Below are positions 19,322 to 41,413 of a stretch of 64,000 nucleotides of DNA, one piece after another; positions within the stretch are counted from its first letter, which is position 1; each line of letters begins with the position of its first letter. Under the pieces are notes generated by a model. It searched no databases. It worked only from the letters and a program-made list of their open reading frames with translations, and was not told where the DNA came from. The DNA lies in the NCBI RefSeq assembly GCF_000378505.1, contig NZ_KB899991.1, forward strand, positions 244,824-308,823. The letters are read 5' to 3'. Source of the DNA: Modicisalibacter luteus DSM 23508 (GTDB taxonomy: Bacteria > Pseudomonadota > Gammaproteobacteria > Pseudomonadales > Halomonadaceae). Both the position numbers and the translations under genes were made by a program.

Positions 19322-19918
19322 TCAACCTATGACGAACGAAGCGCCAAGCGCAGCAATAGCGACGCCTATCCCTTTAAGCAAATGCTTGTCGCGTGCTGCC
19401 ATCAATGAACCAGCGCGCCTGGCCAAATAGATGATGCCTAGAGTAGCAACAGTAAAGCCCGCCAAATAAGCCCATGGCGCGATGCCAGAAGGCATTTCGG
19501 AGCCATGTGCCTGTCCATGACAAAACAGAAACAGTACGACAATGAGTGAACCAAGCGAAGTGGGCATCCTGGCGAGGGTAATCAGCAGTAACCCCATCAG
19601 TAAAACTGACATCGCCACCCCAAACTCCATGCCGGGGATGACTAGTCCAGCCCAAGCAGACAGCGCGCCCAGCAACATACCTAGCATGGCTAGGAGCGGG
19701 ATCATAGACCGAAACTTCGGTACCTGACTCAAGCTCCACAAACCAACAGCCACCATCGCCACGATGTGATCCAATCCAAGCAAGGGGTGGGTCAACCCAG
19801 CCAGAAACCCACCGCCAACCCCCTCAAGCCCCGGATGTGCATAGACAGTTCCTGACGCCAATAAAGTTAGAGTTGCCAATGCCAGCATCCCGGCTAGGAA
19901 GTTGAAAGGCCGTTTCAT
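19322..19918 (-). CDS. hupE: HupE/UreJ-family nickel/cobalt permease
   Basis: A 198-residue protein with a signal peptide (1 to about 27, ending VYAHPG), about six further hydrophobic helices, the hallmark HPLLGLDHIVAMVAVG motif and CHGQAHGSEMP with conserved His residues. HupE proteins transport Ni2+ or Co2+ across the inner membrane, usually beside hydrogenase or urease genes. Here none is nearby; instead the adjacent island encodes the nickel-pincer cofactor enzymes LarB, LarC and LarE and a LarA homologue, which makes nickel supply to that system the likely role (inference). Confidence 0.85.
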   Translation of the reverse strand: MKRPFNFLAGMLALATLTLLASGTVYAHPGLEGVGGGFLAGLTHPLLGLDHIVAMVAVGLWSLSQVPKFRSMIPLLAMLGMLLGALSAWAGLVIPGMEFGVAMSVLLMGLLLITLARMPTSLGSLIVVLFLFCHGQAHGSEMPSGIAPWAYLAGFTVATLGIIYLARRAGSLMAARDKHLLKGIGVAIAALGASFVIG

Positions 19919-19983
19919 AATATTCCCCTTGTCATTATTCGATACCAGAAGTTGGCGATGCTCTTCAGTAGCGGCAGATATAC

Positions 19984-20709
19984 TTACTTTTCATGGCGCT
20001 GTTTCCACTTTTCGAAATCATCCTTGCTCTCCTGCTTCGTCGGAGGATAAAGGCCGATGATTGAGCGACCCGCCAGCACCTCCTCAGTGACAAAGTCTTC
20101 GAAGGCCGTCATCTCAACGGCTTCATCTGCAATGTCATCGGCCAGATGCGCCGGTATAACGACCACTCCCTCGCCATCGCCGACGATTACATCCCCGGGA
20201 AAAACGGGTACATCGCCACAGCCAATCGGCACATTGATGTCGACCGCTTGATGGAGCGTCAAGTTAGTCGGTGCGGAAGGACGCTTGTGATACGCCGGGA
20301 TGTCCAATTTAGCAATCTCAGGTGAGTCGCGAAAACCACCATCCGTCACGACCCCAGCCACACCTCGCACCATCATCCTTGAAACAAGAATGGACCCAGC
20401 AGAAGCCGCTCGAGGATCACGACGGCTATCTATAACCATTACCGCACCTGCAGGACACTGCTCGACAGCGGCTCGTTGCGGATGCTGGGGATCCTGAAAA
20501 ACTGAGATGGGGTTGAGGTCCTCCCGGGCGGGAATATAACGAAGCGTGAACGCTTCCCCCACCATATTGGGTTTCTCAGGATCGAGAGGACTCACTTCCT
20601 GAATAAACTGATTGCGCAAACCACGCTTGAATAGCGCAGTACTCAAGGTTGCTGTACTGACTCTCTTCAACTTTTCACGTGTCTGTGCGTTAAGAGTAGT
20701 TTCTGACAT
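19984..20709 (-). CDS. RraA-family protein (HMG/CHA-aldolase-like)
   Basis: A 241-residue RraA/MenG-like fold protein. Conserved features are AGAVMVIDSRRDPRAASAGS, the GVVTDGGFRDSPEI loop (substrate- and metal-binding Arg/Asp) and GDVIVGDGEGVVVIP. Members labelled RNase regulator RraA are often 4-hydroxy-4-methyl-2-oxoglutarate/oxaloacetate aldolase-decarboxylases. The longer length (241 versus about 160) and linkage to a sugar-acid dehydratase are typical of the pentonate/hexarate-associated subgroup. Last gene of the leftward operon. Confidence 0.8.
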   Translation of the reverse strand: MSETTLNAQTREKLKRVSTATLSTALFKRGLRNQFIQEVSPLDPEKPNMVGEAFTLRYIPAREDLNPISVFQDPQHPQRAAVEQCPAGAVMVIDSRRDPRAASAGSILVSRMMVRGVAGVVTDGGFRDSPEIAKLDIPAYHKRPSAPTNLTLHQAVDINVPIGCGDVPVFPGDVIVGDGEGVVVIPAHLADDIADEAVEMTAFEDFVTEEVLAGRSIIGLYPPTKQESKDDFEKWKQRHEK

Positions 20710-20865
20710 ATCAATTTTTCTCCTTATGCATTGTCCGAAACGTCAGCGAGCAATGGCCTGACAGGGTAAAATCCTGAAAACAAACGAAGTTTATGAATGC
20801 TAACTCAGCCCTTTACTCAACTAGTTGATGCGCATAACCCTGTTCAGGCGCTTGATTGCTATAAC

Positions 20866-22608
20866 CTAGTAAATGTCGGGCTCACCCACGGCAGGCCCAA
20901 AACCGGTTTCCAAAAAGTCGAAATCACAACCTTCATTCGCTTGCTTGATATGCTGAGCAAACATCCAACCATAGCCCCGGGAAAAGGCTGGTTTGGGCGG
21001 GGTCCATTCAGTGCGACGTCGTGCCAACTCGTCATCCGAGACCTCCATGGAAAGACGCCGCTCTGCGATATTGATATGAATCAAGTCTCCGGTTCTCAAA
21101 AGTGCGAGCGGCCCCCCGGCGGCGGCTTCAGGAGCGGCATGCAGTATGCAGGCGCCATAACTCGTACCGCTCATCCGAGCATCGGAGAGACGCAGCATAT
21201 CGCGTACGCCCTGTTTCACGAGCTTGGTCGGTATCGGTAGCATTCCCCACTCGGGCATCCCTGGCCCACCCAATGGCCCTACGTTGCGCAGGACCATCAC
21301 ATGGTCGGCCGTGACATCCAGGTCTTCGTCATCAATGGCGGCCTTCATTTCAGCGTAACTATCGAATACCAAGGCAGGCCCAGTATGATTATGGAACCTT
21401 GGATCGCAAGCGGCGGGCTTGATCACACAACCGTCGGGCGCCAAATTGCCTCGTAATACGGCCAATGATCCTTCCCGATACACTGGATTTGACAAAGGCC
21501 GTATCACCTCATCGTTAAAGACTTCAGCGCCCTGCAACGTCTCCCCCAAGGTCTCTCCGGTCACGGTCAAGGCATTGAGTTCCAGATAGTCCGTCAGACG
21601 GGTCATCAACGCACGCAGGCCACCCGCGTAATAGAAGTCCTCCATGAGATAGTGCTTACCACTTGGGCGTACATTGGCAATGACAGGAATATCACGGCTG
21701 GCCTGATCGAAATCCTCGAGAGTCATGTCGATACCCGCTCGGCGAGCCATGGCGATCATGTGAATGACCGCATTGGTGGAACACCCCGTCGCCATGGCCA
21801 CGGTGACGGCATTGTTGACCGCCGATGATGTGATGATTCGATCAGGAGTCAGTTCTTCCCAAACCATGGAGACTATCCGACGCCCCGAGGCCGCACACAT
21901 GCGTATATGGTTGGCGTCTGCAGCGGGAATGGAACTCGCCGCCGGCAGTGTCAAACCCATGGCTTCGGTAATGGCGGTCATCGTGCTGGCCGTTCCCATC
22001 GTCATGCAATGGCCATAGGAACGCGCAATTCCTCCCTCAATAGCAATCCAGTCGTCCCGCGAAATGTTGCCAGCACGTCGCTCATCCCAATACTTCCAGG
22101 CATCCGAGCCACTACCCAGGACATTTCCTTGCCAGTTACCACGCAGCATAGGTCCAGCCGGCACGAAGATCGCTGGAAGCCCTGCACTGACAGCCCCTAG
22201 CACCAGCCCCGGAGTGGTTTTATCGCATCCGCCCATCAATACCACGCCATCCACAGGGTGCGACCGCAGTAACTCTTCTACCTCCATAGCCAGCATATTG
22301 CGATACAGCATGGTGGTCGGTTTCACGAAGTTTTCGGCGAGGGAGAGCGCGGGTAACTCGATGGGAAAGCCGCCGGCTTCAAGAATCCCACGTCGAATAT
22401 CTTCTACGCGGTGTTTGAAATGCGTATGACATGGATTAATGTCAGACCAAGTATTGATGATGGCAATCTGTGGCCTGGCTTCCCAATCACTGGGTTCCCG
22501 CCCCATTTGCATTGCCCGTGAACGGTGTCCGAAGGCTCGTAGGTCATCGGGCGCATACCAGCGGGCGCTACGTAAGCTATCAGGACTCTTGCTCTTATTC
22601 GTTGTCAT
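20866..22608 (-). CDS. IlvD/Edd-family sugar-acid dehydratase (L-arabonate dehydratase-like)
   Basis: A 580-residue Fe-S dehydratase. The three cluster ligands are C60 (NPCHTH), C128 (GGCDKTTPG) and C201 (GHCMTMGTASTM), the IlvD/Edd pattern. Length and sequence style place it with pentonate/hexonate dehydratases (arabonate, xylonate, galactonate), which remove water to give 2-keto-3-deoxy acids, rather than with branched-chain DHAD. Substrate specificity cannot be read. It lies between the aldolase and RraA-like genes of the leftward operon. Confidence 0.85.
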   Translation of the reverse strand: MTTNKSKSPDSLRSARWYAPDDLRAFGHRSRAMQMGREPSDWEARPQIAIINTWSDINPCHTHFKHRVEDIRRGILEAGGFPIELPALSLAENFVKPTTMLYRNMLAMEVEELLRSHPVDGVVLMGGCDKTTPGLVLGAVSAGLPAIFVPAGPMLRGNWQGNVLGSGSDAWKYWDERRAGNISRDDWIAIEGGIARSYGHCMTMGTASTMTAITEAMGLTLPAASSIPAADANHIRMCAASGRRIVSMVWEELTPDRIITSSAVNNAVTVAMATGCSTNAVIHMIAMARRAGIDMTLEDFDQASRDIPVIANVRPSGKHYLMEDFYYAGGLRALMTRLTDYLELNALTVTGETLGETLQGAEVFNDEVIRPLSNPVYREGSLAVLRGNLAPDGCVIKPAACDPRFHNHTGPALVFDSYAEMKAAIDDEDLDVTADHVMVLRNVGPLGGPGMPEWGMLPIPTKLVKQGVRDMLRLSDARMSGTSYGACILHAAPEAAAGGPLALLRTGDLIHINIAERRLSMEVSDDELARRRTEWTPPKPAFSRGYGWMFAQHIKQANEGCDFDFLETGFGPAVGEPDIY

Positions 22609-22727: not shown

Positions 22728-23510
22728 TTATTGTTTGCCGATAAACGTTTTGAAATGTTCTGCCTTGGCATCGGCCTGGTGAGTTAGCAACCCCATATCC
22801 GAGGCCACAGCAACAAATGTAAATCCGGCCTTTAGCCAGTGTTCCGCCTGCTCCTGCACGGGAGCAAGAATGCCCGCTGGGATGCGTTGCTCTCGGCACA
22901 GTTCCAGTGCCCTGGTAATTTCTCGCTGAACGTCGGTATGAACAACTTCTCCTATATGCCCCAAATCAGCGGCGAGATCGGACGGGCCGATGAAGATCGC
23001 ATCGACCCCCTCCACCGCGGCGATTTCGGGAATATTGTCGATCGCACTTAACGTCTCGACTTGCACGATCAGGCAGAGTTCTTCATTGGCACGGTGAACA
23101 TAGTCACGAATGCGGCCATAACGGTTGGCACGATGGGCAGCCGCAACGCCGCGAATACCATGGTTAGGATACCGAACTGCCGCGACCGCGTATTCGGCAT
23201 CCTCTGCATTCTGCACAAAGGGAATCAGTAAGGTCTGTGCCCCGATGTCGAGGAAACGCTTGATGAGCACCGCATCGTTCCAAGCAGGGCGTACGACAGC
23301 CGCCGTTTCTGTCCCCGCCAGAGCCTGCAATTGTGTCAAGACGTTAGATATTTCATTCGGAGAATGTTCGGTATCGAGCAACACCCAATCGAACCCAGAA
23401 TCGCTAAGGGCATCGATCACTATGCTAGAGCACAAGGTGCTCCATATGCCGATCTGTGTCTGTTTGTTTAGCAACGACTTGAAGCGATTGTGTGGTAGCG
23501 TGGCAAGCAT
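22728..23510 (-). CDS. HpcH/HpaI-family class II aldolase, GarL-like
   Basis: A 260-residue aldolase. Catalytic H49 (DTEHSPNEI), R74 (VVRPAW), metal ligands E152 (VQVETLSAIDN) and D178 (IGPSDLAADLGH) are all present. Alignment by eye is closest to E. coli GarL (5-keto-4-deoxy-D-glucarate aldolase: pyruvate plus tartronate semialdehyde). GarD is encoded in the same island (36603-38171), supporting that assignment, though KDG-type and 4-hydroxy-2-oxoacid aldolases share these residues. The gene sits downstream of larB in the leftward operon. Confidence 0.82.
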   Translation of the reverse strand: MLATLPHNRFKSLLNKQTQIGIWSTLCSSIVIDALSDSGFDWVLLDTEHSPNEISNVLTQLQALAGTETAAVVRPAWNDAVLIKRFLDIGAQTLLIPFVQNAEDAEYAVAAVRYPNHGIRGVAAAHRANRYGRIRDYVHRANEELCLIVQVETLSAIDNIPEIAAVEGVDAIFIGPSDLAADLGHIGEVVHTDVQREITRALELCREQRIPAGILAPVQEQAEHWLKAGFTFVAVASDMGLLTHQADAKAEHFKTFIGKQ

Positions 23511-23546: not shown

Positions 23547-24209
23547 CTAAGACTGACGTCCTAGAATCCGGATAGCGGCACAGGCGGCGCCATATCCGTT
23601 ATCAATATTGACCACGGTTACGCCCGGAGCGCAGCTGGACAACGCTGAATCCAGTGCCGCTCGTCCGCCGTCAGCCACTCCGTAGCCGACTGACGTCGGA
23701 ACCGCGATGACGCTTCCTGAGACCAAGCCCGCAAGGACACTGGGCAAGGCCGCGTCCATGCCGGCAAACACCAGTTTGATGGGGATGGCTTCCAGGCGCT
23801 CGACATGCTCAAGAAGCCGCCACAGGCCGGCCACGCCCACGTCGCTAATCACCTCGACAGCATAACCGTTATATTCCAGGGTGCGCCGCGCTTCGGCAGC
23901 GACTCGCGCATCCGCCGTACCGGCCGTCACAATGGCGATCGCCGGGGCTGCCTGGGGGGAAGGCATCTCCCCCAGTACTGCCGTACTGGAGAGAGCATCG
24001 TAATCGAGCACTTGCTTTATGCGAGAAGGTTGAGCTTCCCAGCACTCGGGGCCGATGCGCGTAATGAGCAAGCGGCGCTCTTCAGCGACGGCCTCATCGA
24101 CAATAGCGGCAATACGATCTGGCGTCTTGAACTGGGCAAAAACGGCCTCCTCCAGCCCGATGCGGGAAGCACGGTTGCGATCGAAACGGACAACTTGTTC
24201 ATCAGCCAT
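23547..24209 (-). CDS. larB: Nickel-pincer cofactor biosynthesis protein LarB
   Basis: A 220-residue LarB homologue. The C-terminal two thirds have the PurE/AIR-carboxylase-like fold (IAIVTAGTADARVAAEARRT, VFAGMDAALPSVLAGLVSG, PTSVGYGVADGGRAAL, INIDNGYGAA-type end). LarB carboxylates and hydrolyses nicotinic acid adenine dinucleotide to P2CMN, the first step of the nickel-pincer nucleotide pathway. Its start overlaps the larE stop by 8 bp, so larC-larE-larB form one translationally linked block. Confidence 0.92.
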   Translation of the reverse strand: MADEQVVRFDRNRASRIGLEEAVFAQFKTPDRIAAIVDEAVAEERRLLITRIGPECWEAQPSRIKQVLDYDALSSTAVLGEMPSPQAAPAIAIVTAGTADARVAAEARRTLEYNGYAVEVISDVGVAGLWRLLEHVERLEAIPIKLVFAGMDAALPSVLAGLVSGSVIAVPTSVGYGVADGGRAALDSALSSCAPGVTVVNIDNGYGAACAAIRILGRQS

Positions 24210-25020
24210 GAAGAAAGGCGCTCCCTTGTTGATAGGCCTCTAGGGTGACAGGCGCTTCACGCCCATGATCCGCCACGATTTGTCTGGCGTATGAAAGCAA
24301 TTGCCGCTCCGTGGCCGAGTCCAGCGACTCGAATAACGAGCTCTCCAGCTCAATACAATATCCCGAATGGCGTATCCGGCACCTAACCGTGATATTGCCC
24401 AACCGGCCACGAACGGCGTTTTCGATCGCATCGACCATCAATAGCGTGTCGGCTTCGACTGCAAGCCCCGTCTCGATACGGCTTGATAGGCAGGGCGCGG
24501 CAGGAAGGCAGGCGATGTCAGTCAAGCCAAGAGAACGCGCCAGTTCACGAACTGCCGCTTTGTCCATTCCTGCTTTTACAAATGGGTGGAAAACCCCATG
24601 CTCACTCGCAGCAATGAGACCGGGACGATAGTCCCCCAGGTCGTCGGTATTCGTTCCAGACGCCATTGTCAGCTGAGCTCCTTGATAATGCGCCTGCAGC
24701 CGCGACATGGTTTGATACAGATGGGTTTTGCAGTAATAACAGCGGTTGATGGGATTGCTGAGATAATGGGGATCGTCGAACTCTCCCGCATCGATGATTT
24801 CTAGCCGCAACTGCCACCGCTCGGCAAGGCCCCGGACCCGGGCAGTAGCATCACCCGGTACGGCTGGCGACAGCGCATGACAGAGCATTAGCCCTTCCCG
24901 CCCACGGACCTGAAAAGCTGCTGACGCCAAGGTCAAGCTATCCACGCCACCGCTGACAGCGATGACCAGCATCTCAGGAGCTCGCAATGCGGTATGAAGC
25001 TCGGCAGGTATTTTCGTCAT
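24202..25020 (-). CDS. larE: ATP-dependent sacrificial sulfur transferase LarE
   Basis: A 272-residue PP-loop enzyme. SGGVDS (23-28) is the ATP-binding PP-loop. C94 and C97 lie in NRCYYCKTHLY. C177 in AAPCLSSR is positionally the sacrificial cysteine (C176 in Lactiplantibacillus LarE), which donates its sulfur to become dehydroalanine. This enzyme thiolates P2CMN to P2TMN in the nickel-pincer pathway. The start shares one base with the larC stop. Confidence 0.93.
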   Translation of the reverse strand: MTKIPAELHTALRAPEMLVIAVSGGVDSLTLASAAFQVRGREGLMLCHALSPAVPGDATARVRGLAERWQLRLEIIDAGEFDDPHYLSNPINRCYYCKTHLYQTMSRLQAHYQGAQLTMASGTNTDDLGDYRPGLIAASEHGVFHPFVKAGMDKAAVRELARSLGLTDIACLPAAPCLSSRIETGLAVEADTLLMVDAIENAVRGRLGNITVRCRIRHSGYCIELESSLFESLDSATERQLLSYARQIVADHGREAPVTLEAYQQGSAFLHG

Positions 25021-26213
25021 TACTCCTCCCTTACCTGCTCGGCTTCAATCCTGACCTGCTGACGTTGCTGGTGAGATTCAGTGAATCGCGCGATGTCATC
25101 CGCCTCGGCTTTACGGGTTGTGCCTGTCGGTCGGGCTGCGGATTTGATGCGGACACGCCCTTGGCTTGTAGCGGCCTTGCTATGCTCTCTTGCCAAAAGC
25201 TTCCGCTCGATCTCGTGATAGCGAATGCCAAGGGTCGTGGTCTGGCGAAAACATGCTTCTAAGACATCGTCAAAATACTCGGGGATCGTGAGCAATTCGA
25301 TCTGGAAGCCAATCCGGCCCTTTTTCGATGCACGGGTAGCTTGTGTGACATCCAGCACACCGGTCATGTCACGCAGGAGGTTGACGGCAATCGCGATGTC
25401 TTCAGGCGTCTGATCATCAATATCGAACGCCGCATGTATAACCCGGTCATGTAAAAAGTCAGCGCCGTTGCCCGCCGCTTCGAGCACCAGGAGGCGCAAA
25501 GCGTTGGCTCTGTCAGGCAGTTCTCGACTTCCAAATCCCATGCCAGATTTAAGCATCCGCCCGCTACAGCGGGTATCGAAGCGGCAATCGAGATGACGGA
25601 GAATCGCAGCTCCTGTAGGAGTTATGCGCTCTCCTGACAGTCCATCGTCATGAACCGGCATCCCTGCCAAGAGCTCGGACGTAGCGGGGGCCGGAACTGG
25701 TACCCACCCATGATCGGTATGAACCTGGCCACTCCCCATGGGGAGCGAGCCACACAACCAGTCCACTTCCCCGATAGCTTCGAGCAGCGCAGCCACCGCA
25801 ACAACATCAATCACCGAGTCCCAGGCACCGACTTCATGGAACGCTACCTGTTGGCGGGTCGCCCCATGAACGGCTGCCTCGGCATCCGCAAGTAGCTCGT
25901 AGATTGCCAGTGCCCGGCCTACGACACCCTGCGATAGGCCACAATGACTGATGAGCGCCACGAGATCAGTATAGTGATGGTGGCTATGGGCCTCATGCTC
26001 GCTCTCGGCCTCGACATAGAAACGCTTACCACGAAACCCCGAAAATGCCCCTTGCTCTATGCGCCAGCTCACGGATGCCGGTAACGGCAAACGATTCAGA
26101 GAATCCCTCAGTGCTGGCTCATGCTCTGGATATATATCAAGCAGCGCGGCGACCATCATGTCTCCGGCTACCCCTCCGAGTGGATCAATCCGAATCAAGC
26201 GTTTTCGCTGCAT
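25020..26213 (-). CDS. larC: Nickel insertion protein LarC
   Basis: A 397-residue CTP-dependent cyclometallase that inserts Ni into P2TMN to form the pincer cofactor. The N-terminal DPLGGVAGDMMVAALLD motif, a His-rich patch (EHEAHSHHHYTDL, about 72-84, likely Ni handling), FHEVGAWDSVIDVV and SGERITPTGAAIL are family hallmarks. In lactobacilli larC is split as larC1/larC2 and joined by a ribosomal frameshift; here it is one uninterrupted frame. First Lar gene after the GntR regulator in the leftward operon. Confidence 0.92.
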   Translation of the reverse strand: MQRKRLIRIDPLGGVAGDMMVAALLDIYPEHEPALRDSLNRLPLPASVSWRIEQGAFSGFRGKRFYVEAESEHEAHSHHHYTDLVALISHCGLSQGVVGRALAIYELLADAEAAVHGATRQQVAFHEVGAWDSVIDVVAVAALLEAIGEVDWLCGSLPMGSGQVHTDHGWVPVPAPATSELLAGMPVHDDGLSGERITPTGAAILRHLDCRFDTRCSGRMLKSGMGFGSRELPDRANALRLLVLEAAGNGADFLHDRVIHAAFDIDDQTPEDIAIAVNLLRDMTGVLDVTQATRASKKGRIGFQIELLTIPEYFDDVLEACFRQTTTLGIRYHEIERKLLAREHSKAATSQGRVRIKSAARPTGTTRKAEADDIARFTESHQQRQQVRIEAEQVREE

Positions 26214-26249: not shown

Positions 26250-26984
26250 CTAATCCTTGACGTCGTAGTACGTCTGCAGACGGTGCTTATTGCACTCGAT
26301 GTGGTATCTCGCCGCAGACCGAGCGGCATCAACATCCTGATTGGTAATGGCATCGATTAGAGTCTGGTGCTCGGCGATGGGTGCCTGCCCGCCATCGACG
26401 CGAGTCGCCGCCTTACGCCGGGAAACCAGGATGGTTTCCTTGAGATAACTACTCAGGTAGTTGAAGAATTCAAGATACAACTCATTATCGGCCGCGGTGC
26501 AGACAGCTCGATGGAAGGCCATGTCCGCGTCGACCCCGGCCTGGATATCTCCCGAGGCTACCGCCTCGCGGAACGACTCCTGCGCGTCAAGCATCATCGT
26601 CAGGTCATGCCGAGTACGCCGTTCGGCGGCCAAGGCCGCGGCCTCAACCTCGAACCCCATGCGCAATTCCACCATGCGCAACACATGCTCGATGCTCTGG
26701 GCATCATGGTCACGAAGGGAGAACCCCCGATTCGGACGCGTCGATACGACGAACACCCCTCTCCCCTGCTGACTGCTCAGTAGACCATCCATTTTCAAGC
26801 GAGACACGGCTTCACGAACCACAGTGCGGCTAACCCCCAGCTCCTTGGCCAACGCACTCTCGGACGGGAGTAGCTCCCCTACCTCAAGGTCCCCGGAGGT
26901 CACCATGCTTCGGAGTTCATCTGTCACTTGATCGCTCAGACTGACGGTCTTCCGAACTGCACGGAATGCAGATGGCTCTTTCAT
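26250..26984 (-). CDS. FadR/GntR-family regulator with FCD domain
   Basis: A 244-residue regulator. The winged HTH (about 15-85) shows SLSDQVTDELRSMV, LPSESALAKELGVSRTVVREA and SRLKMDGLLSSQQGRGVFV, typical of the FadR subgroup. The FCD domain follows, with D, H and H residues in DMAFHRAV and EHQTLIDAI that usually bind a metal and a carboxylate effector. It is first in the leftward operon and divergent from larA, so it probably controls both arms of the island and responds to a hydroxy or sugar acid. Confidence 0.88.
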   Translation of the reverse strand: MKEPSAFRAVRKTVSLSDQVTDELRSMVTSGDLEVGELLPSESALAKELGVSRTVVREAVSRLKMDGLLSSQQGRGVFVVSTRPNRGFSLRDHDAQSIEHVLRMVELRMGFEVEAAALAAERRTRHDLTMMLDAQESFREAVASGDIQAGVDADMAFHRAVCTAADNELYLEFFNYLSSYLKETILVSRRKAATRVDGGQAPIAEHQTLIDAITNQDVDAARSAARYHIECNKHRLQTYYDVKD

Positions 26985-29478: not shown

Positions 29479-29613
29479 ATATAACCAGTTGACATGTCCT
29501 GTCAGCGTTATTACTTTGAAATTGCCTTATTCCACGAGGCTTACCGCTGCACTAACAGAGCGGCATACAAAAAGTGCAGTAACGAACTAAGACAATAAAA
29601 GAGGAATAACATC

Positions 29614-30564
29614 ATGTTAAAACTGGGTAAGCACGCCTCCCTGACAACAATAGCTACCCTCTCTGTCGCTGCGGTATCAATGGCCCAGGCCCAAGATTTT
29701 ACCCTTTCGACCGGGTCACAAGGGGGATCTTGGTACCCCATCGGAGGGGCGCTGAAAGCTGCCGTTGAGAAAAAACTCGATGATGTTTCCATTACGGTGA
29801 CTCCTGGTTCAGGCCTCGCCAATGTCCAGGGTGTGGCTGTTGGGCGCTTCCCGATTGCCTTCGCCAACTCCATCTCTACTGTGGATGGCATCAACGGCAG
29901 AGCCCCCTTTAAGAAACCCATAGATAATGTATGTAACCTTGGCACGCTCTATCCACAGTATTTCCAAGTTATGGCCCTTGACGATGCCGGCGTTGAGTCA
30001 GTGACGGATTTCGAAGGCAAGAGCCTCACCACGCAACAGAACGGTCATACAGGCGAGATGTTGACTCGGCGTCTGCTGGAAGCAAACGGCTTGAGCTACG
30101 AGGACCTTGAAAGTGTCAGTCACCTGTCATACTCCGATTCGGTCGTCGCCATGAAGGATGGCCATGCCGAAATTTTCACGCTCGGTACCGCCCTGCCCGC
30201 CGGCTCGGTCATGGATCTGGCTAACAGCCGCGACATTAGCTTTGTGCCGATAGATGACGAAACCTTCAATCAATTTAAGCAGCAGAACGCTGCCTTTCAG
30301 AAACGCATGGTCACTGCGGGCAGCTATCCGGGCGTGAATGAGGATGTGCCTGCGATCACCTATGACACGCACATGATCGCCCAATGTGATTTCGATGACG
30401 AGATCGTTACCGCCTTCCTAGAGGCCGTCGTCGAGAATACGGATTCCCTCGGCAACATCAGTCGGGCCATGAAGGACCTGACCCCTAAAGAGATGGCTAC
30501 CGACATTGGTGTGCCACTGCATCCCGCCGCGGAAGCGTTCTATCGCAAACACGATGCACTCTAA
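29614..30564 (+). CDS. TAXI-family TRAP transporter substrate-binding protein
   Basis: A 316-residue periplasmic protein. A signal peptide (1 to about 26, ending AQAQ before DFT) precedes the TAXI hallmark LSTGSQGGSWYPIGGALKAA and SANSISTVDG-like region (FANSISTVDGI). TAXI proteins deliver carboxylates to fused DctQM permeases; the next gene encodes exactly that. A strong hairpin separates the two genes. It is expected to import the island's substrate. Confidence 0.9.
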   Translation: MLKLGKHASLTTIATLSVAAVSMAQAQDFTLSTGSQGGSWYPIGGALKAAVEKKLDDVSITVTPGSGLANVQGVAVGRFPIAFANSISTVDGINGRAPFKKPIDNVCNLGTLYPQYFQVMALDDAGVESVTDFEGKSLTTQQNGHTGEMLTRRLLEANGLSYEDLESVSHLSYSDSVVAMKDGHAEIFTLGTALPAGSVMDLANSRDISFVPIDDETFNQFKQQNAAFQKRMVTAGSYPGVNEDVPAITYDTHMIAQCDFDDEIVTAFLEAVVENTDSLGNISRAMKDLTPKEMATDIGVPLHPAAEAFYRKHDAL

Positions 30565-30676: not shown

Positions 30677-32572
30677 GTGCGCCACTCCTCAACGTCGCTT
30701 TATGCTCAGGTATTCGGACTATCGATCAAGGCCGTCCTGGTCGGTATGGCCCTGTACCATATCTACATTGCTCTGGCCGGAACGCCAGGCCCTTATATAC
30801 TACGCGGCATCCATGTAGCGCTGGCCGTTACCCTGATATTCCTCACCAGCAACTATCGACGCGAGTCGGTTCGCACGCCTCATTGGTATGACATGATACT
30901 GGCGGTCTTAGGGCTGTTTTCCGCACTCTACCCCAGCCTGCACTTGGACTACATTTTCTCACGTTTCATTTATGTCGACCCTCTCACCACACGCGATATC
31001 ATCGCTTCTGTCACCCTAGTGGTTCTTGTACTGGAAGCCGCCAGAAGGGCGCTCGGGGCGGCACTGCCGATTACGGCCATCTGCTTTTTAATCTACGCCT
31101 TCACAGCAACCAATACGCTACCAACCGTTGTTCTCGAACAACTCGCCATGACCACAGAGGGCATCTTCGGTATCCCTATTGCCGTCTCGGCAACCTACAT
31201 GGTGCTGTTCATAATTTTCGGTGCACTTGTCGAACGCATGGGCATCGGTCAGTTGTTTATGGATTTTGCCGTAGCACTAACAGGCCGACAGGCCGGAGGG
31301 CCCGCCAAGGTCGCCTGTGTCACCAGCGGCATGTTCGGTTCAGTGTCTGGCTCGGCCGTTGCCAACGTTATGACCACCGGCACTTTTACCATCCCCTTAA
31401 TTAAGCGCATGGGGTTCCGTCCCGCCTTTGCTGGCGCTACAGAAGCCGTCGCATCGACAGGCGGCCAGATCATGCCACCAGTCATGGGTGCGGCTGCCTT
31501 CGTCATGGCCGAGTATCTCGGCATCGGTTATCTCAAAGTGGCGATGTATGCCATTACCCCCGCCCTTCTGTTCTATGTTGCCCTGTTCTTTGGCATCCAT
31601 TTCGCGGCCAAACGCAACAATGTCGGCAGTGTGCCTAAAGAGGATCAGGTGCCGCTGGGACGAGTTCTCAAAGAACGCGGCCACCTGTTCATTCCGCTAC
31701 TCGTCATCATCGGTGCCTTGGTACTCGGGTACTCTGCGCCTTATTCCGCCATGTGCGGTATCGCCTCGGTGATTCCCACTGCGCTTCTGCGCAAGACGAC
31801 CCGGCATTACGTCACCCTGCGCAATATCATCGATGCACTGGAAAACGGCGCCAGGAATGTATTACCAATCGCCGCAGCCTGTGCTTGTGCCGGTATCGTG
31901 GTCGGGGTGATCGATATCACTGGCATAGGCTTGAGCTTTTCCAACTTCGTCATTTCAGCCTCACAGGATATCTTGGTACTGGCTCTGCTCCTCAGTATGG
32001 TAGCGGGCATTATTCTTGGCATGGGCATGCCGACCACACCGGCCTATATAGTTCAGGTTGCTCTCTTGGTACCGGCTCTGACCAAACTCGGCGTACAAGC
32101 GGAAGCAGCTCATCTGTTCGTCTTCTACTTTGCCATCCTGTCTGCCATTACCCCGCCGGTGGCCATGGCCGTCTACGCCGCTAATACATTGTCTAAAGCC
32201 AAGATCTGGGAGTCGAGTATCGAGGCTCTCAAACTGGGCGCAGCCGGTTTTATCGTGCCATACATGTTCGTCTACGAACCGACAATCCTGCTGCAGGGCG
32301 AGCCGCTGAGAATCGTCTACGTGCTGATCCAAGCTACCCTCGGCGTTATCGTGCTGGCCGCGGCCCTACAGCGCTATCTGTTCGCGCCTCTTGCGCGCTG
32401 GCAGCAGCTTGTGTTGTTCGCCGCAGCGATCAGCTTCATCTATCCGGATTGGCGGGTCACCCTCATAGGATGCAGTTTCCTGCTTGTCAGCCAGCTGCCC
32501 GTGCTGCTCAACCGACAGCGTAACCGCTTAGCCGCCGACAAGCGCAAGCGCTACGAGTCGTCTGGCCAATGA
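30677..32572 (+). CDS. TRAP transporter permease, fused small and large (4TM/12TM) subunits
   Basis: A 631-residue inner-membrane protein with about 16-18 hydrophobic segments. The N-terminal quarter corresponds to DctQ, and the rest to DctM with VSGSAVANVMTTGTFTIPL, ASTGGQIMPPVMGAAAFVM and GMGMPTTPAYI loops. TAXI-type systems usually carry this fused form. It is a Na+- or H+-coupled secondary transporter. The GTG start at 30677 is preceded by GGGAG. Next gene follows after a hairpin. Confidence 0.9.
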   Translation: MRHSSTSLYAQVFGLSIKAVLVGMALYHIYIALAGTPGPYILRGIHVALAVTLIFLTSNYRRESVRTPHWYDMILAVLGLFSALYPSLHLDYIFSRFIYVDPLTTRDIIASVTLVVLVLEAARRALGAALPITAICFLIYAFTATNTLPTVVLEQLAMTTEGIFGIPIAVSATYMVLFIIFGALVERMGIGQLFMDFAVALTGRQAGGPAKVACVTSGMFGSVSGSAVANVMTTGTFTIPLIKRMGFRPAFAGATEAVASTGGQIMPPVMGAAAFVMAEYLGIGYLKVAMYAITPALLFYVALFFGIHFAAKRNNVGSVPKEDQVPLGRVLKERGHLFIPLLVIIGALVLGYSAPYSAMCGIASVIPTALLRKTTRHYVTLRNIIDALENGARNVLPIAAACACAGIVVGVIDITGIGLSFSNFVISASQDILVLALLLSMVAGIILGMGMPTTPAYIVQVALLVPALTKLGVQAEAAHLFVFYFAILSAITPPVAMAVYAANTLSKAKIWESSIEALKLGAAGFIVPYMFVYEPTILLQGEPLRIVYVLIQATLGVIVLAAALQRYLFAPLARWQQLVLFAAAISFIYPDWRVTLIGCSFLLVSQLPVLLNRQRNRLAADKRKRYESSGQ

Positions 32573-32579
32573 TTTCTGC

Positions 32580-32610
32580 CCCCGGACCGGTTGTGATGAC
32601 CGGCCCGGGG
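32580..32610 (+). terminator. Intercistronic hairpin between TRAP permease and ThDP enzyme genes
   Basis: Arms CCCCGGACCGGT (32580-32591) and ACCGGCCCGGGG (32599-32610) pair with a single internal A-C mismatch and a 7-nt loop. No U-tract follows. Confidence 0.65.
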
Positions 32611-32640
32611 CCAGACACTACCTTTCTCGGAGTTTCCGCC

Positions 32641-34323
32641 ATGTCCCAGCCCATCAGCCCTCGCGCTCGTTCCGGTGGCCAGATCCTGGTCGATCAATTG
32701 CTGATTCACGGTGCCGAGTGCGCCTACTGCGTTCCCGGTGAAAGTTATCTAGAGATACTCGATGCCCTGCACGACGCCCGAGATCGCTTCACGCTCTACA
32801 ATGCCCGTCATGAAGCAGGAGCGGCCAACATGGCGGAAGCCTATGGCAAGCTGACCGGCAAACCCGGCGTGTGCATGGTGACGCGCGGTCCTGGTGCCTG
32901 CCATGCTGCCATCGGCGTGCACATCGCCCAGCAGGATTCCACCCCCATGATTCTGCTGATAGGACAGGTCGACCGGCCATCGAGGGATCGCGAGGCCTTC
33001 CAGGAGATCGATTACCGCCAGATGTTCGGCAGTGTCGCCAAGTGGGTCGCCCAGATCGACGACGCCACACGCATCCCGGAATACATGGCCAGGGCCTTCC
33101 GTGTCGCGACGTCGGGCCGCGCCGGTCCGGTCGTGCTGGCCCTGCCAGAGGACATGCTCACCGATGTCGTCGAAACGACCGACGCCACGCCCTATACAGC
33201 CACGCGTCCCGACATCGGTGAGCATGACCTCGAGCGCATTCGCACCGCGCTATCAACGGCACAGCGGCCCATGCTGCTAGTCGGTGGGAGTGGTTGGGAC
33301 GATGAGGCATGCCGTGCCATCACCACCTTCGCCGAAACGAACGATTTGCCGGTGGCGTGCTCGTTCCGCCGCCAAGATATCGTGGATAACCGCTCCGAGG
33401 TCTATATCGGCGACTTCGGAACCGTGAGCTCACCCAAGTTGATTCAGCGTATCGCCACGGCGGACCTACTGCTCGTGATTGGCGCACGACTCGGGGAAAT
33501 GACCACAAAAACCTACACGACCCTGACGCCACCCGTTGCCAGCCAGCAACTGATACATATTCATAGCGACGCCGATGAAATCGGACGCGTCTACAGTCCT
33601 GAGAACGGGATAGCGGCAGCGCCTGAACGGGTTGCTCGCGCGCTGGAACGTTGCCAGTGGGATCTTTCGGGGCGTTGGAGCGACTGGCGTCAACAAGCTC
33701 GCCAAGAATATCTAGACGATATCAACGCCTCGGATGAAGATAGCGCGCTCAATATCGGTCAGGCTTTGATGGACATGCGTGATCGGCTCCCAGCCGACGC
33801 GATCGTCACCCTAGACGCTGGCAACCATACCGGCTGGGCACAGCGATATCTGCGATACGGCCGTCCCGGACGTCAACTGGGGTCCACGTGCGGTGCGATG
33901 GGCTACTCGGTACCGGCCGCAGTTTCGGCCTCACTGCACGATCCTGAACGGGTAGTTCTTTCCTTCGTCGGCGATGGCGGGTTCATGATGAGCGGTCAGG
34001 AACTGGCAACCGCCATACAACATGGTGGGCGCCCGATCGTGCTGCTCTTTAATAACGGCACATATGGCACCATCCGAATGCATCAGGAGCGCGAACATCC
34101 CGAACGTGTGGTCGGCACCGACCTGGTCAACCCCGATTTCCTGGGTATGGCCCAAGCCCTGGGCGCCCATACCGAATCCGTTACCCGCACCGAGGAACTC
34201 GGTCCCGCGCTGACCCGCGCCATCGAGTCCCGGCGGCCCGCGGTGATTGTGCTGAAAACCGATCCCGAACGCATCTCGACGAGAACCACCATCGCCCAAC
34301 TGCGCCTCAGCAAGCGCGGCTGA
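32641..34323 (+). CDS. ThDP-dependent enzyme, acetolactate-synthase-like (copy 1)
   Basis: A 560-residue three-domain ThDP enzyme. Catalytic E58 lies in NARHEAG. The ThDP/Mg motif begins G444-D445-G446 and ends N471-N472. The central domain has GGSGWDDEACRAI. It is not a glyoxylate carboligase because the catalytic Glu is retained. Reaction is unknown; it may decarboxylate or ligate the 2-oxoacid formed by the neighbouring hydroxyacid dehydrogenases. GGAG near 32629 supports ATG 32641. A colinear paralogue lies at 43864-45564. Confidence 0.85.
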   Translation: MSQPISPRARSGGQILVDQLLIHGAECAYCVPGESYLEILDALHDARDRFTLYNARHEAGAANMAEAYGKLTGKPGVCMVTRGPGACHAAIGVHIAQQDSTPMILLIGQVDRPSRDREAFQEIDYRQMFGSVAKWVAQIDDATRIPEYMARAFRVATSGRAGPVVLALPEDMLTDVVETTDATPYTATRPDIGEHDLERIRTALSTAQRPMLLVGGSGWDDEACRAITTFAETNDLPVACSFRRQDIVDNRSEVYIGDFGTVSSPKLIQRIATADLLLVIGARLGEMTTKTYTTLTPPVASQQLIHIHSDADEIGRVYSPENGIAAAPERVARALERCQWDLSGRWSDWRQQARQEYLDDINASDEDSALNIGQALMDMRDRLPADAIVTLDAGNHTGWAQRYLRYGRPGRQLGSTCGAMGYSVPAAVSASLHDPERVVLSFVGDGGFMMSGQELATAIQHGGRPIVLLFNNGTYGTIRMHQEREHPERVVGTDLVNPDFLGMAQALGAHTESVTRTEELGPALTRAIESRRPAVIVLKTDPERISTRTTIAQLRLSKRG

Positions 34324-34359
34324 CCTCATGTATTGATCACTCACCCATTGGAGCTTGAT

Positions 34360-35787
34360 ATGCCCGATGCCCTGAACCGACAACCAATCGCTGAAGAATT
34401 GCTCGACACGCTGGTTTATCGACTCGGGGCAGACTACGTACTGACCGAGGCATCAGACATGCTTCCCTACGTCCAAGAACAGCGCAGACTGTATCCAGGC
34501 CATGCATTGGCCGTGGTGATGCCGGCGTGCACCGCTGATGTTGCCTACATCGTCAAGCAGTGTCGCCATCATGGCGTTGCGCTGGTACCCCAAGGCGGAA
34601 ACACCGGGCTGGTCGGAGGCGGTGTGCCGCATCAGAGCATCGTCGTTGCCCTGGGACGCATGAACCGCATTCGTGATATCGACCCCACCAATGCCACCAT
34701 CACAGTAGAGGCGGGCTGCATCCTCCAGGCAGTGCAGGACGCCGCCCATGACGCCGGACGCCTGTTTCCTCTGTCGCTGGCCGCAGAGGGATCGTGTCAG
34801 ATAGGGGGAAACCTGGCCACGAATGCTGGCGGCATCAATGTGCTGCGCTATGGTAATGCCCGTGACTTGGTGCTGGGGTTGGAAGTGGTACTGGCCGACG
34901 GCCGTGTCATGAACGGTTTGACCGCGTTACGCAAGGACAACACCGGCTACGATCTTAAACACCTCTTCATCGGCTCCGAGGGCACGCTGGGCATCATCAC
35001 CGCCGCCGTGCTCAAGCTGTATCCCATGCCCCGAGGCAAGGCGACTGCCCTGGTCGGTTGCGACTCGCCTCACCAGGTACTGGCATTATACGACCAGTTG
35101 CGGAGCCGACTTAGCGATACGCTGACGGCCTTCGAATTCCTGCCACGTTTTGCAATGGATGCCGTGCTTTCCCATGTTCACGGGACACGCGCCCCTTTCA
35201 ACCAGAGCTTCGCATCATACGCGTTGATTGAACTGACGACACCGGATGCCGACCTCGATCTGAATCCACGACTGGAAGCGGCCCTGGCCGATGCGTTCGA
35301 GAATAATATAGTATGCGATGCCATTATTGCGACGAGCAGCAAGCAATCCCAGGAGTTATGGCGGTTGCGTGAAGGTGTCGCGGAAGCACAAATAGCCGAA
35401 GGCGCATCGATCAAGCACGACATCTCCGTCCCGGTGTCACGTATCGCTGATTTCATCGAGGCCGCCAGTGCCGCCTGCCTATCGATCCTTCCCGCCTGCC
35501 GCATTTGCGCCTTCGGTCATGTCGGTGACGGCAACCTTCATTTCAACGTCAGCCAGCCTGTCGACATGGAGGCTAACGACTTCATGGACTTGACCCCCCG
35601 GTTCAATCGTGCCGTACACGACCTGGTCGCTGACATGAATGGCTCGATTTCGGCAGAGCATGGTATCGGGCTCGCTAAGCGGACCGAATTGCGCCGCTAC
35701 CAGGATCCCGTGGCCTTGGCCCTGATGGAAGGCATCAAGACGGCGCTGGACCCTCAAGGGCTATTCAATCCCGGCAAGCTACTGTGA
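34360..35787 (+). CDS. FAD-linked D-2-hydroxyacid dehydrogenase/oxidase (GlcD-like)
   Basis: A 475-residue VAO/PCMH-fold flavoenzyme. The FAD pyrophosphate-binding loop is VPQGGNTGLVGG (77-88), and SCQIGGNLATNAGG and GSEGTLGIIT follow. The metal-binding C-terminal motif is FGHVGDGNLHFNVS, and EHGIGLAKR ends the active-site region. Members oxidise D-lactate, D-2-hydroxyglutarate or glycolate, feeding electrons to quinone or ETF. ATG 34360 has GGAG 6 nt upstream; a TTG at 34333 is less likely. It may be the physiological oxidase for the LarA-epimerised acid. Confidence 0.87.
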   Translation: MPDALNRQPIAEELLDTLVYRLGADYVLTEASDMLPYVQEQRRLYPGHALAVVMPACTADVAYIVKQCRHHGVALVPQGGNTGLVGGGVPHQSIVVALGRMNRIRDIDPTNATITVEAGCILQAVQDAAHDAGRLFPLSLAAEGSCQIGGNLATNAGGINVLRYGNARDLVLGLEVVLADGRVMNGLTALRKDNTGYDLKHLFIGSEGTLGIITAAVLKLYPMPRGKATALVGCDSPHQVLALYDQLRSRLSDTLTAFEFLPRFAMDAVLSHVHGTRAPFNQSFASYALIELTTPDADLDLNPRLEAALADAFENNIVCDAIIATSSKQSQELWRLREGVAEAQIAEGASIKHDISVPVSRIADFIEAASAACLSILPACRICAFGHVGDGNLHFNVSQPVDMEANDFMDLTPRFNRAVHDLVADMNGSISAEHGIGLAKRTELRRYQDPVALALMEGIKTALDPQGLFNPGKLL

Positions 35788-35814
35788 GCGTGGCTGGAAG
35801 AACTGGGTGTCGTC

Positions 35815-36564
35815 TCAGCCGCGCCCGACATAGGGCATCTTGGTCGCCATCATAGTCATAAATTGCACATTCGCGTCTAATGGCAGGCTGGCCATGTGCA
35901 CGATCGCCCTTCCCACCTCCGCAGCATTCATGCGCGGCTCGGGTACGACATCACCATTGGGCTGCATAACCCCATCGACCATTCTGGCCGTCATGTCAGT
36001 ATCGGCGTTACCGATGTCTATCTGGCCGCAGGCAATGTCGAAGGGCCGGCCATCCAGAGACAGTGACCGCGTGAGCCCGGTTATTGCGTGCTTGGTGGCC
36101 GTATAGGCCACGCTTAATGGCCGGGGCACATAGGCGGATATCGAACCGTTATTGATGATCCGGCCCCCACGCGGCGACTGCTCGCGCATGAGACGAAACG
36201 CGGCTCGGGCGCATAGGAAGCTTCCGGTCAGGTTGGTGTCGACGACATCTCGCCATACAGATACCGGCAACTCATCTGGAGTAGCCGGTGGTGCGCCTCG
36301 TCCCGCATTGTTGAAAAGAAGATCTACCCGGCCCCAGGCAGCGACGACCTGATCGAATGCCGCATCCACCGAAGCCTCATCACCGACATCGGCTACCACG
36401 ACTAGCGTGGCCGTGGGGCAAGTGGCGAGACTCGCCGTTTCCTCAAGACGATCACGCCGTCTCCCCACCAACGCGACCCGGTACCCTTCCTTAACCAAAG
36501 CCAGCGTTGCCACCCGACCGATACCGCTCCCCGCTCCTGTCACTACCGCAACGCTGCCTGCCAT
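35815..36564 (-). CDS. Short-chain dehydrogenase/reductase
   Basis: A 249-residue classical SDR. The cofactor motif GAGSGIG spans 10-16, NNAG is at about 85-88, and the catalytic S141, Y154 and K158 are present. The substrate is not visible. Its orientation is opposite to the ThDP/FAD operon and the same as garD, 38 bp upstream in its transcript, so it may reduce tartronate semialdehyde or another hexarate breakdown product (inference). Confidence 0.85.
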
Positions 36565-36602
36565 GTTGTGCTCCTCAATAATTGCTCATCGCTGATGGGG
36601 TA

Positions 36603-38171
36603 TTATGTAACGGGGGCTGGATTGAACAGTGCCAGATCGTTATGGATCCCCAGCCTTTCAACCGCCGCCTGTTCACGCCCACTGGCAATATCCAAGATAA
36701 GATGGAAAAGTTCCCACCCCATCGCTTCGATCGTGTCATCGCCGGAAGCGATGCGGCCGGCATCGAGGTCGATGAGGTCATGCCAGCGTCGGCTTAACGT
36801 TGTGTTCGTCCCGACCTTGATCACCGGGACCATGGACAATCCATAAGGGGTACCGCGCCCGGTCGTGAACACATGCATGTTCATGCCCGCCGCCAACTGC
36901 AACGTGCCGCAGATAAAGTCGCTGGCCGGAGTTGCGACAAAATTCAACCCTCGCTTCCTGATCCGCTCTCCAGGCCCAAGCACATCGATGATGGGACTTG
37001 TACCTGATTTGGCGATGGAGCCCAGCGCCTTTTCGATGACATTGCTCAACCCGCCGCTCTTGTTGCCCGGTGACGGGTTGGCACTTCTATCCGCCTGGCC
37101 CTGTGCCAGATACTCGTCATACCAGGCCATTTCTCGGATCAGTTTCTCCCCCACCTCCGCATCGATGACTCGTGGCGCCAGCAGATGGATTGCGTCGCGC
37201 ACCTCCGTCACCTCCGAAAACATGACTGTACCGCCGGCCCGCACGATCAGATCCGCTGCAAAACCGACGGCCGGGTTGGCCGTGACCCCCGAGAACGCAT
37301 CACTGCCACCGCATTGCGTGCCCACCACCAGTTCCGAGACGGGACAGGACTCGCGACGCCGCTGATCTAGCTTGGCGAGATGCTGCTCGGCCATGGCCAT
37401 GATACCGGCCATCATTTCCGAAAAGCCGACAAAACGCTCGTCTTGTAAACTGAGAATGTGACCGCTGGAGTCTGCCTTTTCATTCGCGCCGTAAATCTTG
37501 ACGGGCTGCTCTGATACCAACGTCGACGGCTGTAGCTTCTCGCACCCCAGGCCAACGACCATCACCTCCCCGCCGAAGTTGGGGTTGAGCGTGATATTTT
37601 TGAGGGTACGAATAGGAATGATTGCGGCAGGCGCATTGATGGCAACACCGCAGCCATAGGTATGCGTCAGCCCAACGACGTCATCGACATTAGGATACTT
37701 GGGTAACAATTCCGCCTTGATACGTTTGACGGCATGCTCAACGGTACCAGCGACGCATTGCACGCTTGTCGTGATTCCAAGCACGTTCCTTGTGCCCACA
37801 CTCCCATCGGCATTGCGATAGCCCTGAAAGGTATACTCTGCCAGCGGTTCTGCCGGCCCATATTCACGGGTAGCCACTTCAAGCTCTTGTAAAGAGGGTG
37901 GCTGGCGCAACGCGATATTCCGCTCATTGACGTGGCCACCCAATGGGATCGTCTCAGTCGCCGTACCGATGACTTCGTTATAACGAATGACCTCGGCTCC
38001 CGACGGGATATCTGACAAGGCAATTTTATGCCCTTGTGGAATATCTACGATAGCAACCAGACCGGCTTGTAGTTGCGTTCCGGCCGCCACCCCGCCTTGC
38101 CCGATGACGATGGCTACATTATCGCTGTCATGGACCTTGATTACCTTCTTGTTATCTGTGGACCGCGTCAT
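36603..38171 (-). CDS. garD: Galactarate dehydratase (UxaA family)
   Basis: A 522-residue enzyme, matching the 523 of E. coli GarD. An N-terminal SAF-type domain (about 10-95) is followed by the UxaA core with [47 protein letters not shown] and [18 protein letters not shown]. It dehydrates meso-galactarate to 5-keto-4-deoxy-glucarate using iron. AGAGGT precedes the ATG. Both possible next steps are encoded nearby: a GarL-like aldolase and a KDG-dehydratase-like enzyme. It forms an operon with the SDR. Confidence 0.88.
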
Positions 38172-41410: not shown

Positions 41411-41413
41411 TCC

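Follow-up and report, generated by a model that had tools for sequence, protein, structure and literature searches.

A gene island of Modicisalibacter luteus with a group-22 LarA homologue and a predicted role in sugar-acid catabolism

Within the LarA superfamily of nickel-pincer 2-hydroxyacid racemases and epimerases (LarA, MAR, HGR, GntE and HHR), 25 groups of LarA have already been catalogued (Desguin et al., 2020, PMC7583248). One of them, group 22, is named by NCBIfam a nickel-pincer isomerase without a substrate, and the available parts of PMC7583248, PMC11770544 and PMC12611868 assign it none. In Thermotoga maritima the D-mannonate/D-gluconate 2-epimerase GntE is a nickel-pincer epimerase that inverts a sugar acid at C2 so that the product can be broken down; the proposed route leads into the pentose phosphate pathway by way of gluconate (PMC7583248). 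Other sugar acids are degraded through L-arabinonate/sugar-acid dehydratases (RlArDHT, PuDHT), where dehydration is followed by aldol cleavage, or, in the Halomonadaceae, through a galactarate-glucarate cluster with GarD, a GudD-like protein, a TTT-type transporter, a KdgD-like lyase and a GntR regulator. Here we describe 16 genes of the halomonad Modicisalibacter luteus DSM 23508 that form an island around a group-22 larA, at positions 19322-38171 of an analysed stretch of 64 kb (contig NZ_KB899991.1, positions 244,824 to 308,823; hereafter the window). With a probability of about 0.58 we read them as an island under GntR control that serves to catabolise a polyhydroxy (sugar) acid, in which the group-22 LarA would act as C2 epimerase.

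Each of the described systems resembles the island in part. The GntE pathway would share with it a nickel-pincer epimerase placed before breakdown, but the island has dehydratases and aldolases downstream and its LarA belongs to another group. With the dehydratase routes it has in common the family model, a serine at position 480 of the dehydratase IlvD within an SGT motif, and the presumed succession of dehydration and aldol cleavage; the IlvD of the island, however, ends in Tyr or Phe, whereas that class ends in His. The galactarate-glucarate cluster of the family, which in this genome resembles that of Halomonas (PMC5507952), likewise contains GarD, is under GntR regulation and carries a similar 11-mer in four of eight cases, but it combines a TTT-type transporter with a KdgD-like lyase, in contrast to the TAXI-TRAP importer, LarA and GarL-like aldolase of the island. 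The genome carries both. No described pathway with this gene set was found in the open-access literature, outside which most subscription journals lie, and this agrees with the original prediction for the locus, although the enzyme class is already catalogued (NF052515) and the design of an epimerase before breakdown is known from Thermotoga.

The open reading frames of the island were checked one by one against family models, and names are supported by Pfam and NCBIfam bit scores relative to cut-offs. The genes named in the original prediction are present as open reading frames at 19322-38171 and their families were upheld, a short-chain dehydrogenase (SDR, 35815-36564) having been left out of its inventory. 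From gntR the minus arm runs leftwards through larC, larE, larB, the HpcH/HpaI aldolase, the IlvD/EDD dehydratase, the RraA-like gene and hupE, while the plus arm runs rightwards through larA, D-2-hydroxyacid dehydrogenase (2HADH), the TAXI receptor, the fused TRAP permease, a thiamine diphosphate (ThDP) enzyme and a GlcD-like flavin adenine dinucleotide (FAD) enzyme. A two-armed locus under one divergent GntR promoter had been proposed; the divergent lar arms stand, but the SDR gene and garD, on the minus strand and convergent with the plus arm, have their own promoter and form a third transcription unit, which gives the island at least three. In the following list, L010, L011 and L012 denote the corresponding islands of three genomes from the same family and two other genera, whose flanks are L097-L102.

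19322-19918, minus strand: HupE/UreJ-type nickel permease (PF04955, 154.3 bits; syntenic in L010-L012 at 61-62%)
19984-20709, minus strand: RraA-like protein, class II pyruvate aldolase/oxaloacetate decarboxylase type (NF006093, 364.2 against a cut-off of 208; R127-D128)
20866-22608, minus strand: IlvD/EDD sugar-acid dehydratase (NF009559, 1082.7 bits against 882; C-terminal residue Tyr)
22728-23510, minus strand: HpcH/HpaI (GarL/HpaI-like) pyruvate aldolase (PF03328)
23547-24209, minus strand: LarB (NF033503, 250.1 against 175)
24202-25020, minus strand: LarE (TIGR00268; CXXC at C94 and C97, plus C171/C177)
25020-26213, minus strand: LarC, with LarC1 and LarC2 domains in a single frame (TIGR00299 and NF052512)
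26250-26984, minus strand: GntR/FadR-type regulator with FCD domain (PF00392 and PF07729)
27025-27035, minus strand: operator-like CTTGTATGATA in the divergent GntR/LarA promoter (from the comparison of the shared 11-mer)
27096-28424, plus strand: LarA homologue, group 22, predicted nickel-pincer isomerase (NF052515, 484.5 against 400)
28471-29439, plus strand: D-2-hydroxyacid dehydrogenase, GhrB/glyoxylate reductase type (PF02826/PF00389; under all equivalog cut-offs listed)
29473-29483, plus strand: operator-like CTTGTAATATA before the TAXI gene, a weaker site (2 mismatches in the window)
29614-30564, plus strand: TAXI-type TRAP solute receptor (TIGR02122, 215.3 against 84.35)
30677-32572, plus strand: fused TRAP permease (TIGR02123, 615.5 against 320.65)
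32569-34323, plus strand: ThDP-dependent enzyme, PRK08199 subfamily (NF006052, 785.6 against 539)
34333-35787, plus strand: GlcD-like FAD D-2-hydroxyacid dehydrogenase (PF01565/PF02913; under every equivalog cut-off listed)
35815-36564, minus strand: SDR, one unit with garD (PF00106; syntenic at 88-90%)
36603-38171, minus strand: GarD galactarate dehydratase (TIGR03248, 871.7 against 730.85)
38395-38405, minus strand: operator-like GTTATATGATA in the garD promoter (2 mismatches in the window)

Four observations carry our reading, namely the parts themselves, their conserved linkage, the fold and residues of LarA, and an operator-like word shared between promoters. The LarA homologue is a clear member of the family 'nickel pincer cofactor-dependent isomerase, group 22' and also passes Pfam Lar_N (24.0 bits, cut-off 23.3); at least 568 stretches encode a relative of it, and each of the 50 sequences taken into an alignment fits the group-22 model at E<=1e-100. 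Its AlphaFold2 model has a mean pLDDT (predicted local distance difference test) of 92.5, and all 18 matches of this model in the PDB at E<=0.001 (Foldseek, ranks 1-18) are LarA structures, with TM-scores of 0.40-0.58. Identity to the solved members is 12-16%, and a profile of 50 group-22 sequences run against PDB sequences found no LarA structure and chance matches alone. When group 22 was compared by hhalign with four canonical LarAs from other genomes (E 0.00028, probability 41%), R69, H101, H166, K179 and H195 aligned with R75, H108, H174, K184 and H200 of canonical LarA (numbering from PMC7583248 and PMC11770544). Both catalytic histidines (H108, H174) and the cofactor residues R75, K184 and H200, which include the cofactor Lys, the nickel-binding His and the phosphate Arg of the superfamily, have counterparts in group 22, and these are invariant in 88 of 88 group-22 sequences, the window and near copies included. 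K277 is likewise invariant; the LarA alignment spans the N-terminal domain only and does not reach K298 in the C-terminal domain. Identity as GntE or lactate racemase was rejected, since the specificity-loop positions after H166 are T167-T168 and not E-V (GntE) or F-F (LAR). The two-domain LarA fold and the residues support a nickel-pincer isomerase whose cofactor binding and activity are predicted.

The genes for the cofactor adjoin it. A genome-wide search returned a single match each to Lar_N and NF052515 and no second LarA was found, so that the LarB, LarE and LarC of the island should make the cofactor for the group-22 enzyme. LarB exceeds its cut-off in 7 of 97 genomes, M. luteus included, and every one of the seven also encodes a LarA, which is canonical in two of them (G016, G028) and of group 22 in the other five. 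The cysteines of LarE (CXXC at C94 and C97, with C171/C177) follow the [4Fe-4S] type of pattern, and CXXC plus further cysteines has been tied to the catalytic [4Fe-4S] type of LarE rather than the sacrificial type (PMC9283937).

The 16 genes are collinear and in the same order in L010, L011 and L012, with protein identities of 61-93% and nucleotide identities between the islands of 79.8-81.9% over about 18 kb, so that their grouping is not due to chance. Seventeen window proteins from outside the island, six of the next cluster and 11 of the wider flanks, were queried on L097-L102, where no ortholog-like match was found for any of them; the sole hits were one at 29% and two GntR matches at 27-33%. 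KdgD-TctCBA, which comes after garD in the window, is absent beside the islands of the three syntenic genomes. The 16-gene island is one discrete unit with common ends in four genomes. Membership of garD and the SDR gene in the neighbouring KdgD-TctCBA cluster was rejected, because garD-SDR accompanies the lar island in three genomes and KdgD-TctCBA does not; this synteny and the shared 11-mer assign the pair to the island. Group-22 larA occurs in 5 of the 97 genomes, the present one included, and in none of the 13 other genomes of the genus. When the search was broadened to another class, 14 of 387 genomes gave a match, the best 52% identical. A core of the island recurs in Telmatospirillum sp. 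J64-1 (L017), an alphaproteobacterium in which larBEC diverges from larA, a glyoxalase-fold gene, a DHDPS-like gene, ilvD, 2hadh, TAXI and TRAP genes and a ThDP gene of the PRK08199 type, and the locus breaks off within a GlcD-like gene of which a piece is present; the shared genes are 50-75% identical to those of the window. HupE, RraA, HpaI, SDR and GarD were not found in the L017 stretch examined, which ends at the GlcD-like piece.

Regulation gives a further link between garD and the lar genes. The gap between gntR and larA measures 111 bp and holds CTTGTATGATA. This word is exact in the lar promoters of the window, L010 and L011 and in the garD promoters of L097 and L098, which belong to the same genomes as L010 and L011. 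In the fourth genome, represented by L012 and L099, the lar and garD sites both read GTTGTATGATA, that is, they carry an identical C-to-G change, and this shared, co-varying word ties garD to the lar island. The L010 island has two exact copies of CTTGTATGATA, compared with a mean of 0.004 in 500 random sequences (first-order Markov samples, not exact shuffles), none of which reached two. In the window itself the garD site is no better than other two-mismatch words there, and the TAXI-gene site, which has one mismatch in L010, has no equivalent within two mismatches in L011 and L012. Four of eight control GarD clusters of the family carry CTTGTATGATG, one mismatch from CTTGTATGATA, which is why the words recognised by the island regulator and by the galactarate regulator may be similar; the two GntR proteins are about 31-32% identical. 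On these comparisons the GntR protein is a candidate regulator of the lar and garD promoters through a putative operator.

From these parts we infer all reactions, their order and the substrate. The TAXI-TRAP system would import the acid, while LarB, LarE and LarC, with nickel from HupE, would make the nickel-pincer cofactor of the group-22 LarA. LarA would then invert C2 of the acid and yield the 2R epimer required by IlvD-type dehydratases; IlvD, or GarD for a six-carbon diacid, would remove water to give a 2-keto-3-deoxy acid, which the HpaI-type and RraA-type aldolases could cleave to pyruvate and a small oxo fragment, left to the D-2-hydroxyacid dehydrogenase, the GlcD-like enzyme and the ThDP enzyme to process. 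The succession import, C2 epimerisation, dehydration and aldol cleavage is the best-supported order for this predicted route, and candidate substrates are a short acid (C4-C5) and an aldarate that inversion at C2 would bring into the galacto form.

The choice of a short acid leans on the dehydratase. Sugar-acid dehydratases of the IlvD/EDD family accept only 2R,3S acids (PMC9314677), and their conserved C-terminal His extends into the active site of the partner subunit (PMC9314677, PMC11316719), a residue reported as fully conserved in the class (PMC11316719). When this His was replaced by Phe in PuDHT, activity moved from gluconate to short acids (PMC9314677, PMC11316719). All five island-type IlvD proteins have an aromatic C-terminus, Tyr in the window, L010 and L011 and Phe in L012 and L017, and the window protein aligns to the last position of NF009559. 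This end hints that the natural substrate is a short acid, or else a diacid, whose 2R form LarA would have the task of making. For want of the His, an L-arabinonate dehydratase in the strict sense was rejected. As for GarD, the copy of the island is the second above the TIGR03248 cut-off in the genome; the other lies on contig C9 together with a GudD-like gene (L168), and because the genome has this separate pair, the island is not simply a galactarate pathway.

The aldolases and the remaining oxidoreductases are placed less precisely. The HpaI-type protein had been called GarL-like, which its family (PF03328) and its nearest solved relative bear out (GarL 1dxe at 253.5 bits, then HpaI 2v5j at 247.6), but it falls under the equivalog cut-offs of both GarL (293.3 against 406.75) and HpaI (308.8 against 368.8) and is assigned to the GarL/HpaI family as a whole. 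The RraA-like label holds for the family, above the cut-off of its model, but R127-D128 is aligned with the Arg-Asp pair of the HMG/CHA aldolase 3noj, whose Asp we take to be a functional residue. Since the pair is kept, the protein is probably an enzyme, likely with pyruvate-aldolase or oxaloacetate-decarboxylase chemistry, and a role as RNase regulator is disfavoured. A role of Arg123 in this type of aldolase has been described (PMC5065237). The best solved relative of the GlcD-like enzyme is an unnamed oxidoreductase (3pm9, 475.9 bits), the best named one D-2-hydroxyglutarate dehydrogenase (6lpn, 324.9). The genome has three copies above the cut-off of the PRK08199 ThDP subfamily, the other two beside TTT-type transporters; a survey of the contexts of this subfamily revealed frequent TTT-type transporters and GudD/GarD neighbours, and no reaction emerged from it. 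In L163, L164, L167 and L170 PRK08199 enzymes recur by TctC/TctA-type genes, in some cases together with GarD or GudD-like genes and with no lar genes.

What accompanies group-22 larA elsewhere was examined in 85 loci, made up of the best 80 of at least 568 and L012-L016 (L010 and L011 were left out as near copies of L012), a set that leans towards relatives of the window through this choice of the best 80. Genes were labelled by tblastn with single queries and counted as near within 5 kb of larA (731 kb in total) or, as control, far when farther away in the same loci (616 kb). The original prediction had suggested such a neighbourhood analysis for TAXI-TRAP and IlvD genes, and IlvD (7 near, 0 far) and TAXI (5/0) are indeed enriched, whereas TRAP (4/2) hardly is. 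DtnK-like kinase and PdxA2-like genes are each found at 11/0, in the identical 11 loci; FGGY kinase and sulfatase reach 10/0 each, HpaI and KdgD 3/0 each and HIBADH 6/1, and there is little or no enrichment of UxaC (3/1), ThDP (1/1) or GlcD (2/1). At least one sugar-acid kinase, PdxA2, UxaC or dehydratase gene is near larA in 31 of the 85 loci. Judged by one representative each, the DtnK-like (332.7 against a D-threonate kinase cut-off of 450), PdxA-type (380.6 against 583 for D-threonate-phosphate dehydrogenase) and FGGY proteins (482.5 against 648.55 for gluconokinase) are under curated cut-offs and are to be taken as relatives, not assigned orthologs.

These contexts follow the phylogeny of the isomerase. 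In a tree of 86 LarAs they cluster, with 14 changes compared with a shuffled mean of 30.1 (0 of 200 shuffles as low), and 10 of the 11 DtnK rows share one 11-row branch with an SH-aLRT of 95; as tree and labels share ancestry, the counts are not independent events. D-threonate and D-erythronate, like D-gluconate and D-mannonate, are C2-epimer pairs, and their interconversion is the kind of reaction expected of a LarA. At the second position after H166, which the LarA literature treats as one of specificity, D stands in 10 of 11 DtnK rows and A in all 11 FGGY/UxaC rows; the five island-type rows (window, L010-L012, L017) have T there, and the other dehydratase rows S, A or D. The DtnK-PdxA2 context, found in L013, L025, L026, L027, L033, L035, L043, L050, L055, L076 and L086, mostly from Bacillota and Rubrobacter, predicts a D-erythronate/D-threonate 2-epimerase, a link that Desguin et al. 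(2020) may already have in their context table.

Other neighbourhoods are of a different kind. In L021 and L022 group-22 larA stands among sulfatases, a TTT-type transporter, an enolase-type dehydratase and a GarD/UxaA-like protein, and sulfated sugar acids are possibly the substrates of these clusters. In Poribacteria (L051, L056, L072, L075, L085, L087 and L089) larA is followed in near-constant order by genes for a UbiA-like protein, a protein without an NCBIfam match, a sulfatase-like protein and a GT2-like protein, the UbiA and GT2 labels being assigned by eye; these loci have no sugar-acid context.

That the island serves a hydroxy or sugar acid other than lactate, as had been predicted, is well supported by the residues, the fold, the co-located cofactor genes, the family context and the operator-like word, leaving aside the single-promoter control. 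A sugar-acid epimerase, however, has to be set against several findings that weigh the other way. No sugar-acid gene among those tested is near larA in 54 of the 85 loci, and IlvD is the only dehydratase enriched, GarD (3/2), UxaA-type (3/2) and enolase-type (2/2) genes not being so; according to Desguin et al. (PMC7583248), gene context is not always helpful for LarA function. D72 of LarA sits in a gap of the hhalign alignment (probability 41%), where the residues of group 22 are not Asp. Distant IlvD relatives near larA (L016, L024, L053, L063 and L096) also lack the terminal His, and an aromatic end could be common among NF009559 members, which softens the argument from the C-terminus. The aldolase slot of L017 holds a very weak DHDPS-like protein only (20.5 bits, under the cut-off), and the ThDP enzyme, the GlcD-like enzyme and the SDR are without a firm role in the proposed route. 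The commonest catabolic neighbour of group-22 larA is moreover D-2-hydroxyacid dehydrogenase (12 near, 1 far), and 7 of these 12 loci have no sugar-acid gene near. A plain hydroxyacid racemase would predict this too: LarA would convert an L- into a D-2-hydroxy acid, 2HADH and the GlcD-like enzyme would oxidise it and the ThDP enzyme would decarboxylate the 2-keto acid, with the dehydratases and aldolases serving parallel substrates. In the island 2HADH directly follows larA (28424 to 28471), the named structure nearest to the GlcD-like enzyme is a D-2-hydroxyacid oxidising one, and 2HADH and ThDP genes are both retained in L017; yet IlvD belongs to the L017 core and is near larA, never far, and the kinase contexts point to polyhydroxy acids, for which reasons we consider such a racemase unlikely, though a real contender.

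Also unlikely, in our estimate, is a special case of the sugar-acid epimerase in which LarA would turn altrarate, talarate or a related hexarate into galactarate for GarD, the GarL-like aldolase would release pyruvate and tartronate semialdehyde, and 2HADH would reduce the latter. It draws on a GarD above its cut-off that shares the operator-like word, on the closeness of the aldolase to GarL, on the similar 11-mer of half the control GarD clusters and on the other GarD and GudD-like gene of the genome, since the presence of a further copy points to another entry compound; but GarD was not in the L017 stretch and is not enriched near group-22 larA, and IlvD, RraA, ThDP and GlcD would be left without a role. 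Still less can be said for independent catabolic operons that merely travel together and form no single pathway, which we hold to be quite improbable. The spread of the island is patchy (0 of 13 other genomes of the same genus, against three genomes in two other genera), it has several transcription units, and its GarD proteins in the window and in G033 share 90% identity, compared with 79.5% for the other GarD of those two genomes, as transfer of the island would give, on the basis of a single gene pair. The co-varying operator-like word nevertheless ties garD to lar, and the core is retained in the distant alphaproteobacterium.

If the C2 epimerase reading is extended, group-22 LarAs would be a large unrecognised family of sugar-acid 2-epimerases whose subclades differ in substrate (D-erythronate/D-threonate by DtnK-PdxA2; D-mannonate/D-gluconate by gluconokinase and UxaC), and the island a new pathway in which LarA acts as stereochemical adaptor, supplying the 2R epimer to an iron-sulfur dehydratase whose aromatic C-terminus would suit it to a short polyhydroxy acid; this extension is offered tentatively, at somewhat worse than even odds. 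Were it true, a nickel organometallic cofactor would serve as stereochemical adaptor in sugar-acid catabolism and open the use of acids with the wrong C2. The island and its relatives provide cheap and concrete substrate predictions for three group-22 subclades, together with a matched LarB/E/C set and a nickel permease for expression, and the candidate operator of the regulator could reveal the inducer.

A scan for tRNA genes, aimed at finding an integration site, returned none. The adjoining cluster at window positions 38923-47567 encodes a KdgD-like lyase, a TctCBA transporter, a GntR regulator, a second PRK08199 ThDP enzyme and an aldehyde dehydrogenase. Farther along lie a PIN-domain toxin-like open reading frame (51564-51977) and an Xre/ParS-type antitoxin with a RES-domain partner (53104-54188). 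On the other side of the island, a single open reading frame at 17370-18887 encodes both a flavodoxin-like and a UbiA prenyltransferase domain, in what looks like an unusual fusion.

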